A program made the translations under genes and the position numbers. From positions 194,430 through 258,429 of the forward strand of contig NZ_RCVZ01000003.1 of assembly GCF_003668575.1 (NCBI RefSeq): a stretch of 64,000 nucleotides of DNA, given 5' to 3'. This document shows positions 16,459-33,347 of this stretch, piece after piece; positions within the stretch are counted from its first letter, which is position 1; the number at the start of each line of letters is the position of its first letter. The DNA comes from Falsibacillus albus (GTDB taxonomy: Bacteria > Bacillota > Bacilli > Bacillales > DSM-25281). The notes beneath the pieces are model-generated. The model was not told the origin of the DNA, did no database searches, and was given only the letters and a program-made list of their open reading frames with translations.

Positions 16459-16982
16459 TTTTTTGCGAGCAATTCCGGTTTTTGCGCCATTCTCCACTTT
16501 TTTTGCGCGTAACTCTGATTTTTTGCGTCATTCCCCAATTTTTTGCGCGTAACTCTGATTTTTTGCGTCATTCCCCAATTTTTTGCGCGTAACTCCAGTT
16601 TTTTGCGCCATTCTCCACTTTTTTTGCGCGCAATTCCTGTTTTTTGCGCCATTCTCTACTTTTTTGCGCGCAACTCGGGTTTTTGCGCCATTCTCCACTT
16701 TTTTTGCGCGCAATTCCGGGTTTTTGCGCCATTCTCCACTTTTTTTGCGCGTAACTCTGATTTTTTGCGTCATTCCCCAATTTTTTGCGCGTAACTCTAA
16801 TTTTTTGCGCCATTCTACACTTTTTTTGCGCGTAACTCCGGTTTTTGCGCCATTCTCTACTTTTTTGCGCGTAACTCCGGTTTTTGCGCCATTCTCTACT
16901 TTTTTTGCGCGCAACTCGGGTTTTTGCGCCATTCTCCACTTTTTTTGCGCGTAACTCTGATTTTTTGCGCCATTCCCGAGTT
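16459..16982. repeat. tandem array: 13 copies of a 40-bp dimeric unit
   Basis: Twenty-six consecutive 20-bp (19-22) half-units alternate strictly between type A (T5-7 GCGCGTAACTCYGR) and type B (T5-6 GCGYCATTCYCYAN). GCG trinucleotides fall at 16465, 16484, 16505, 16525, 16545 and so on, ending near 16966. Four A-units carry the palindrome TTGCGCGCAA. Because 40 is not a multiple of 3 and few stops arise, several frames on both strands stay open; these are artefacts. T-tracts recur about every two helical turns, which predicts curved DNA. Confidence 0.95.
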
Positions 16983-17033
16983 TTTAGCGTGATAGACGAT
17001 TTCCTCCACAATCTCGATCCTCACTCTCCCCCA

Positions 17034-31349: not shown

Positions 31350-31583
31350 TTACAATCCAAAGTATGCAACTGCAATGGTCAAAACGAAAAATAACACAGA
31401 AAGTACAACGGTCACTCGATGAAGGACCAAATCAAGACCACGAGCTTTTTGCTTGCCGAAAAGCTGTTCCGCCCCACCGGAAATGGCGCCGGACAATCCT
31501 GCACTCTTTCCAGATTGCAATAGAACAACGACAATTAAACTGATTGCATCAATAACCAATAATACCGTTAATAAAGTATGCAC
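31350..31583 (-). CDS. secG: preprotein translocase subunit SecG
   Basis: A 77-residue membrane protein of the SecYEG channel, with two transmembrane helices (about 3-22 and 56-75) and the SecG loop [27 protein letters not shown]. The start is a GTG at 31583, placed 7 bases after AGGAGGAGT. Head of the secG-est-rnr-smpB group; the long stem-loop at 31220-31328 lies just past its stop, so part of the transcripts end there. Confidence 0.97.
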
Positions 31584-31852
31584 GAGTTACTCCTCCTGAA
31601 ACGAACATAATGATAGTCTAATCTTAACATACAGATAATTCTAGTACAATAACAAAAGCGAAGGCAGAACATTATGCAAGTCCTTTGGTGAAGTTGTGTG
31701 CGAAATCTGTAGTTTGAAGTCTTTCTCCTTAGAGAGATTATTTAGATTTGCGAGCGATTCTCTTATTTTGTGCATGAAGCGATTGAGGGCACAATATTAT
31801 TAAAACTGCCGTGGCGAGCCGCGGCAGACGGACAAATTGGCTGCCGCCTCCT

Positions 31853-31975
31853 TAATTGCGCGCAATTTTGATTTTTTGCGCCTAAATCAGGATTATTGCG
31901 CGTAACTTTCGTTTTTTGCGCCTAAATCCTATTTTTTGCGTCCTTTTCATCCTTTATTGCGCAATGTTCCCTTTC
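31853..31975. repeat. second short array of the 20-bp T-tract/GCG units
   Basis: Six units with GCG at 31858, 31878, 31898, 31918, 31938 and 31959, i.e. exact 20-bp steps apart from the last. A-type units read TTGCGCGCAATT and TTGCGCGTAACTTTC; B-type units read TTTTTTGCGCCTAAATC. The design matches the big array at 16459-16982. The first unit is in a perfect 14-bp palindrome AATTGCGCGCAATT. Confidence 0.85.
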
Positions 31976-32001: not shown

Positions 32002-32034
32002 AACAAAAAACCAATCCCCGGGCCCAGGGATTGG
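32002..32034 (-). terminator. eno terminator
   Basis: Stem CCAATCCCtGGG / CCgGGGATTGG around a CCC/GGG centre, then TTTTTTG on the minus strand, 20 bases past the eno stop. Confidence 0.9.
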
Positions 32035-32054
32035 TCTATTTAAGTTCAATCTTA

Positions 32055-33347
<1,293 letters not shown>

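Follow-up and report, generated by a model that had tools for sequence, protein, structure and literature searches.

The window analyzed here, a stretch of 64,000 nucleotides of Falsibacillus albus DNA, carries between the enolase gene eno and secG six head-to-tail units of a repeat family that we call F1 (core TTTTTTGCGC), which follow one another at core-to-core steps of 20, 20, 20, 20, and 21 bp and start just past the terminator-like site of eno (table 1). A first-pass annotation had described six units in a 20-bp register at this place, opening with a 14-bp palindrome, and both features are indeed present, with steps of 20–21 bp and the palindrome lying inside the first unit. It had also sorted the units into the A and B types of the larger array of the window, which suits units 1 and 3 (type A, GCGCGYAA) and units 2, 4, and 5 (B-like), but not unit 6, which is of an end type. 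Tandem Repeats Finder recovers the inner stretch only (31871–31940, 3.5 copies of 20 bp, 68% matches), and the core TTTTTTGCGC occurs 18 times in the 64-kb window, 16 times in the large array and twice in the eno–secG array, whereas 100 shuffled versions average 0.5 occurrences. The composite pattern of the adjoining hairpin and ACGGACAAA has six matches in the genome, every one of them adjoining an F1 array.

Table 1. Repeat arrays and flanking features, in window positions or, for the F1 loci of the genome, in kb on the contig named.
Feature	Position	Strand	Remark
secG, flanking gene	31350–31583	−	PF03840, E 5.5e-23 over 31353–31583
Hairpin CTGCCGTGGCGAGCCGCGGCAG then ACGGACAAA	31806–31836		Adjoins the eno–secG array, side away from eno
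F1 array, six 20–21-bp units	31852–31972	+	T-runs on the + strand, antisense to both flanking genes
Units of the eno–secG array	31852–31871, 31872–31891, 31892–31911, 31912–31931, 31932–31952, 31953–31972		
Start-type unit TTAATTGCGCGCAATTTTGA	31852–31871	+	Contains the 14-bp palindrome
14-bp palindrome AATTGCGCGCAATT	31854–31867		Inside the first unit
End-type units TTTTTTGCGTCC-N6-TCC-TTTATTGCGCAA	31932–31972	+	Order and form as in locus L061
Terminator-like site 3' of eno	32008–32037	−	Consensus match only
eno (enolase), flanking gene	32055–33347	−	Enolase_N and Enolase_C
Large F1 array, 26–27 units	16459–16990	+	A and B tail types alternating; between acyltransferase and zinc dehydrogenase genes
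F1 loci, contig C3	185.2, 187.1, 210.9, 226.3, 335.4, 375.5 kb		226.3 kb is the eno–secG array
F1 loci, contig C9	3.1, 32.7, 41.2, 182.2 kb		
F1 loci, contigs C17 and C18	C17 64.1 kb; C18 53.0 kb		

The genome to which the window belongs (labeled G000; 4,485,249 bases in 37 unordered contigs) holds 55 matches to the spaced pair TTGCGC-N10-16-TTGCGC versus 1 with a reversed control, and all 55 pairs are spaced at 19–21 bp, though the pattern permitted 16–22. F1, a dispersed intergenic element, comprises about 12 loci, including one on C17 that is a motif-blind match near the threshold (score 18.5) assigned by eye, and its arrays range from 3 to 26–27 units. The first-pass annotation had proposed a genome-wide family as opposed to a single slippage event, and had named a whole-genome scan yielding only chance matches as what would speak against it; the 55 pairs versus 1 and the dozen or so loci bear this proposal out. 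Its companion idea, that the arrays expand at each site from a 20-bp seed, finds no support where it can be judged, as the eno–secG array and locus L061 have in common their first unit (TTGCGCGCAAW) and their last two units (TTTTTTGCGTCC-N6-TCC-TTTNTTGCGCAA), and whole arrays have therefore been copied. More generally, first units with GCGCGCAA, which yields the palindrome, are found in the eno–secG array and at L061, L062, and L066, and the first unit of the large array has GCGAGCAA. Local growth is seen too, namely in the array of 26–27 units and in block copies of 195–197 bp (array plus flank) that stand four-fold at C3:185.2 kb and C9:41.2 kb. The F1 loci fall on four contigs amounting to 18% of the genome, these unordered contigs being chosen post hoc; a confinement of F1 to three contigs was considered and dropped, since the family also occurs on C17, near three others.

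Across the order, the strict F1 pair was found in 8 of 397 genomes (36 in G000, five in G221, and one in each of six others). A scan of named genomes for three F1 units returned 30 stretches, including some in Scopulibacillus darangshiensis, Alkalicoccobacillus murimartini, and Halobacillus dabanensis, and most of the stretches outside Bacillales and Oscillibacter resemble short near-identical tandem repeats. In S. darangshiensis, about 18 units of roughly 20 bp apiece approximate TTTTTTGCGCTCCCATCGGG (L042:1366–1769). One uncultured Oscillibacter metagenome-assembled genome bears, on contigs L040, L041, L044, L048, and L049, T-run-GCGC arrays with units of about 17–19 bp and tails that vary by locus, which amounts to an F1-like design in Clostridia. 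Viral contigs L234 and L235 bear triple TATCGGTC arrays. Finally, Bacillaceae-1 RNAs (RF01690) are found on two F1-bearing contigs (L064:8538–8604, minus strand; L067:9958–10025, plus strand).

Within the arrays, core words and total length are retained and spacers drift. The mean information of F1 units is 1.42 bits over positions 1–10 and 0.38 bits over positions 11–20 (53 of 56 units from 10 arrays, excluding three 19-nt units and the large array). F1 units, like those of the sibling genome G001 described below, were gathered with core-containing patterns, which biases core conservation upward, and the column tests on paralogous arrays and block copies are the ones that partly avoid this bias. 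Six paralogous arrays at G001:C8:32.3–34.4 kb are all exactly 117 bp long, and with the finding anchors excluded, their variable columns number 12 of 47 in the core versus 21 of 32 in the spacer (P = 5e-4). Likewise, the block copies of G000, which were found via their flank, have no variable column among 30 in the core versus 6 of 30 in the spacer (P = 0.02). Point-changed spacers alongside kept cores and kept length suggest a continuing constraint.

The sole other genome returned for the taxonomic family is G001, that of the sibling species. The strict F1 pair has no match in G001 (strict pattern only), and its eno–secG gap holds a different array, in the same orientation as in G000, made of 21-bp units of the form ACTTT-N8-ACC-N5. 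Matches to a pattern of this type number 133 in G001 versus 23 for the control, and 3 versus 26 in G000. Eighteen distinct G001 arrays of at least four units start with TTTGCTC in 16 cases and end with RCTNTCC in 11. Synteny also holds for a second interval, 5' of the 6-phosphogluconate dehydrogenase gene, where both species have arrays in several block copies and with differing cores; since in G000 this interval also includes a glucose-6-phosphate dehydrogenase gene that is absent from the G001 stretches examined, it is the same interval but not the same point. At four other syntenic places, one sibling alone has an array (G000 at C3:276.6 kb and C11:170.6 kb; G001 at C3:424.6 kb and C6:88.4 kb). 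We do not take the overlap of array places between siblings as significant, the eno–secG gap having been chosen because of its F1 array. Overall, whole arrays have been copied to new sites, and replaced or lost between siblings. As a separate observation, the flanks of G001 arrays (L072, L105, L109) recurrently show CGCCGATATTC or TATCGGCGCAGCC near CAAATTGTC, and GACAAATT takes a comparable place beside several G000 arrays, so that flanks may belong to the element.

The two-turn spacing extends well beyond F1. We ran a motif-blind scan for intergenic self-similarity at lags of 10–45 bp with a threshold of 18, which none of 211 Markov-resampled pieces reached (maximum 14.5). In stretches that had not been picked for arrays, 9 of 18 distinct matches fall at lags of 19–21 or 39–42 bp (P = 0.003 versus uniform lags), two of the nine being barely at the threshold and G221 and G040 having been sampled more after arrays were seen there. 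G000 itself has at least four families with differing core words and a common spacing of 20–21 bp, that is, two helical turns. Besides F1, spaced pairs of WATCRGYC (F2) number 55 versus 0 in the reversed control, those of TGATGGA (F5) 88 versus 0, and those of TTCGNAGATA (F6) 54 versus 0; pairs of ATCRRYC number 88 versus 2. All 54 F6 pairs are at 20 or 21 bp (19–22 permitted), and the listed F5 pairs of G000 are at 21 bp except one (19–21 permitted). On contig C17, four families stand close together within 16 kb. It is also interesting to note that GATAWAT is common to the reverse strand of F2 (GACCGATATAT) and to F6 (GCAGATAWAT), so that these families may be related and their single spacing could be plain inheritance.

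The distribution of these other cores is uneven. G001 has two F5 pairs and no F6 pair, and nine other genomes have 0–2 TGATGGA pairs and no TTCGNAGATA pair. Of 394 genomes in the order, 121 have WATCRGYC pairs, in many cases a single one that may be due to chance, and the remaining 273 have none. At 20–21 bp, 21 of the 394 genomes, from 10 families, have at least 10 matches (11 to 477), with at most 4 per genome in the reversed control. The three genomes of genus g9 have 126, 32, and 0 matches. In these other genomes the WATCRGYC core is constant and the spacer genome-specific, and arrays can exceed 20 units (G072). Samples of 60–100 kb per genome from G002, G005, G007, G010, and G029 yielded no clear two-turn array; they gave one lag-20 match at the threshold score in G010 and two matches at other lags in G005. 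Further cores were noticed in G221 (AAATCAGTRAAGAGAG, 20 bp) and G040 (AATCAGTCGCGAATCC and AATCCGGCC, 20–21 bp), at L143:10322–10446, L141:31–165, and L164:1529–1686. A near-perfect 23-bp tandem repeat of about four copies at G000:C2:327992–328090 (L150) is more homogeneous than the two-turn arrays.

With regard to placement, we considered gaps of 150–2,500 bp between naive ORFs in both siblings. Arrays occupy 37 of 409 such gaps (4 of 106 divergent, 22 of 232 co-directional, and 11 of 71 convergent), in a sample where many stretches had been chosen for arrays and where 2 of the 37 (C1:117 kb and C2:328 kb) are other tandem repeats that get through the lag filter. Divergent gaps are underrepresented, at 4 of 37 array-bearing gaps versus 102 of 372 others (P = 0.03, one of three uncorrected tests), and the share of convergent gaps, 11 of 37 versus 60 of 372, does not differ significantly (P = 0.065). 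Most arrays lie downstream of at least one neighboring gene. A fixed direction of the arrays relative to genes was looked for and not seen, both orientations occurring.

On this basis, we tentatively read the arrays as DNA-level rows in which predicted protein-binding sites all face the same side of the helix, a reading to which we give a probability of roughly 0.48. The conserved 10-bp core of F1 would be bound by a protein and the 10-bp tail or spacer would be free to drift; the two-turn spacing would set neighboring sites on one face of the duplex, where bound molecules could touch and thus form a row; and such a row, lying past gene ends, could insulate adjoining transcription units or organize the chromosome. 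Either a dedicated reader for every core would then be required, or a single reader family of shifting specificity. Several lines of evidence lead us to this reading: the fixed spacing in F1, F5, and F6 despite the wider ranges permitted; the keeping of cores while spacers vary, in paralogous arrays, in block copies, and in F1 information; the recurrence across 10 families of the WATCRGYC core with genome-specific spacers; the coexistence of four families in G000 and the motif-blind excess at lags of 19–21 and 39–42 bp; and, finally, the scarcity of arrays between divergent genes and a fold that is independent of unit order.

This last point bears on whether the arrays could instead act as RNA, a transcribed array folding into one long rod or into successive hairpins, which we regard as very unlikely. 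The eno–secG array does fold better than dinucleotide shuffles (z of −4.7 and −4.8 on its two strands), as does its G001 counterpart (−3.9 and −2.6), and when the tails alone are shuffled, z is negative in 14 (T strand) and 11 (opposite strand) of 15 F1 segments (eno–secG array, −3.1 and −4.7). However, when unit order is permuted, the eno–secG array alone retains a z of −2.7, on the A strand, and the combined z over 11 arrays is −1.3 with units reordered and 0.15 with units from other loci on the T strand, and 0.4 and 0.5, respectively, on the other strand. A whole-array hairpin was accordingly rejected, as reordered or other-locus units fold equally over the 11 arrays, and the fold derives mostly from self-complementary units. 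Folds are moreover weak in the G001 array of L113 (z of −0.6 and 0.2) and the F2 array of L127 (−0.7 and 0.3), and the arrays are oriented either way to genes. A within-unit dyad was also sought through covariation in G001, with none clear among 49 units, and no Rfam family falls on the arrays of the window or of 12 loci (F1, G001, and one F2 array). Given a fold independent of unit order, no clear covariation, and no Rfam match, we treat the arrays as DNA features. At that level, T-runs phased at 20 bp could bend the DNA so that shape alone would matter; F1 does have T6 runs two turns apart, but WATCRGYC and TGATGGA keep the spacing with no long T-run in the core, which leaves intrinsic curvature a slender chance as the general explanation. 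That the arrays are relics of plasmid iterons or partition sites is, to us, hardly credible. Direct-repeat rows two turns apart are typical of iterons, but F1 has about 12 chromosomal loci, and ten flanking or nearby genes are ordinary ones (enolase, SecG, a hydrolase, an acyltransferase, a zinc dehydrogenase, glucose-6-phosphate dehydrogenase, release factor domains, PTS, fumarase, and HxlR). The large F1 array has no match in 72,556 plasmid records, in a search made for F1 only whose low-complexity filter may hide some matches, and triple-unit patterns occur in viral contigs in five stretches for F1 and two for F2. A plasmid origin was thus considered and found unsupported, no replication initiator gene being present among the ten genes scanned.

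The main rival is that the arrays are parasitic or neutral repeats akin to BOX elements: non-autonomous elements that have a tandem module inside, owe their spread to a transposase or to recombination, and are tolerated downstream of genes. The core would then be the target of the spreading enzyme, and the spacing would come from one ancestor, or from the enzyme or replication machinery that duplicates the DNA. This is a serious contender, if on the whole a doubtful one. It accounts well for the patchiness within a genus (126, 32, and 0 matches in g9), for arrays found in only one sibling at four syntenic places, for block duplications, and for the distinct start and end units of F1 and of G001 (16 of 18 starts and 11 of 18 ends). 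The paucity of arrays in divergent gaps and the convergent excess (P = 0.065) are also in line with it, pneumococcal BOX elements being similarly placed (PMC3049150), and the GATAWAT of F2 and F6 may mark one diverging lineage. Yet sites with and without an array in G000 and G001, when compared by eye, are too diverged to define ends, and neither terminal inverted repeats nor target-site duplications were established. Arrays of equal core differ, furthermore, by spacer point changes with core and length kept, which suggests constraint.

Several observations count, in turn, against the reading of the arrays as protein-bound rows. No WATCRGYC pair exists in 273 of 394 genomes; F5 and F6 are nearly absent from G001, which would demand a reader just as species-bound; four cores in one genome call for several specificities; the GATAWAT common to F2 and F6 means that one spacing could be inheritance; a vital function would not permit the lack of an array in one sibling at several syntenic places; and placement past gene ends fits mere tolerance as well. 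The relation of F2 to F6, together with the fact that the second common place is an interval and not a point, led us to lower slightly our estimate for protein-bound rows and to raise that for BOX-like repeats. These two readings are not mutually exclusive.

A bolder version of the protein-bound row, which strikes us as speculative and rather unlikely, would make of these repeats chromosomal address arrays of Bacillales, rows of protein-read words two turns apart with a fast-evolving reader of its own for each word family. Siblings would then keep an array site, as in the eno–secG gap and the 6-phosphogluconate dehydrogenase gap, and write different words there. The common spacing rule suggests that the families share a reader, a builder, an ancestor, or a physical constraint. 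Arrays read by protein would form a layer of chromosomal or gene-end organization with a turnover faster than that of species, and parasitic arrays would reveal a builder of repeats that advances in fixed two-turn steps.

How do these arrays compare with known systems? Their conserved part of 7–13 bp, and paralogous spacers that are related by point changes, set them apart from the near-identical repeats of more than 20 nt and unrelated spacers of CRISPR, and the absence of any Rfam match (F1, G001, and one F2 array) and of clear covariation sets them apart from structured noncoding RNAs. A description of these arrays was not among the matches listed in a search of open-access full-text literature, whose scope left most subscription journals outside and some of whose queries were aimed at RemA and BOX. 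In the iterons of theta plasmids, too, several direct repeats, each partly conserved and partly variable, follow one another at two helical turns; unlike iterons, the present arrays lie at many chromosomal places, with no replication gene among the ten scanned neighbors. The TAACTGA direct repeats of Beggiatoaceae and cyanobacteria (PMC4679880) form many intergenic sets of undetermined role that are patchy across taxa, with 7-bp units that in one genome mostly lie just upstream of start codons, whereas the units here are of 20–21 bp with variable spacers. In Bacillus, the regions bound by RemA are weakly conserved, periodic, AT-rich direct repeats that serve as a platform, protected upstream of a promoter in 7-bp stretches with 3-bp gaps, that is, at a 10-bp period (PMC8481266); they differ from our arrays, which have a 20–21-bp period, strict cores, and few representatives between divergent genes. 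The BOX elements of Streptococcus (boxA-boxB(n)-boxC) are dispersed, intergenic, found in few species, and favored between convergent genes (PMC3049150). As in BOX, distinct outer modules surround a variable number of tandem inner modules in F1 and G001 arrays. Unlike BOX, the arrays here are made of 20–21-bp units, shorter than the box modules, belong to several families that coexist at one spacing but with different cores, and have a fold that is not order-specific over 11 arrays. BOX, the RemA regions, and TAACTGA repeats are thus the nearest in design, none of them fitting unit length, spacing, and number of cores together. Small interspersed repeats are usually described family by family, whereas here one spacing rule joins different cores, both within a genome and across genera.
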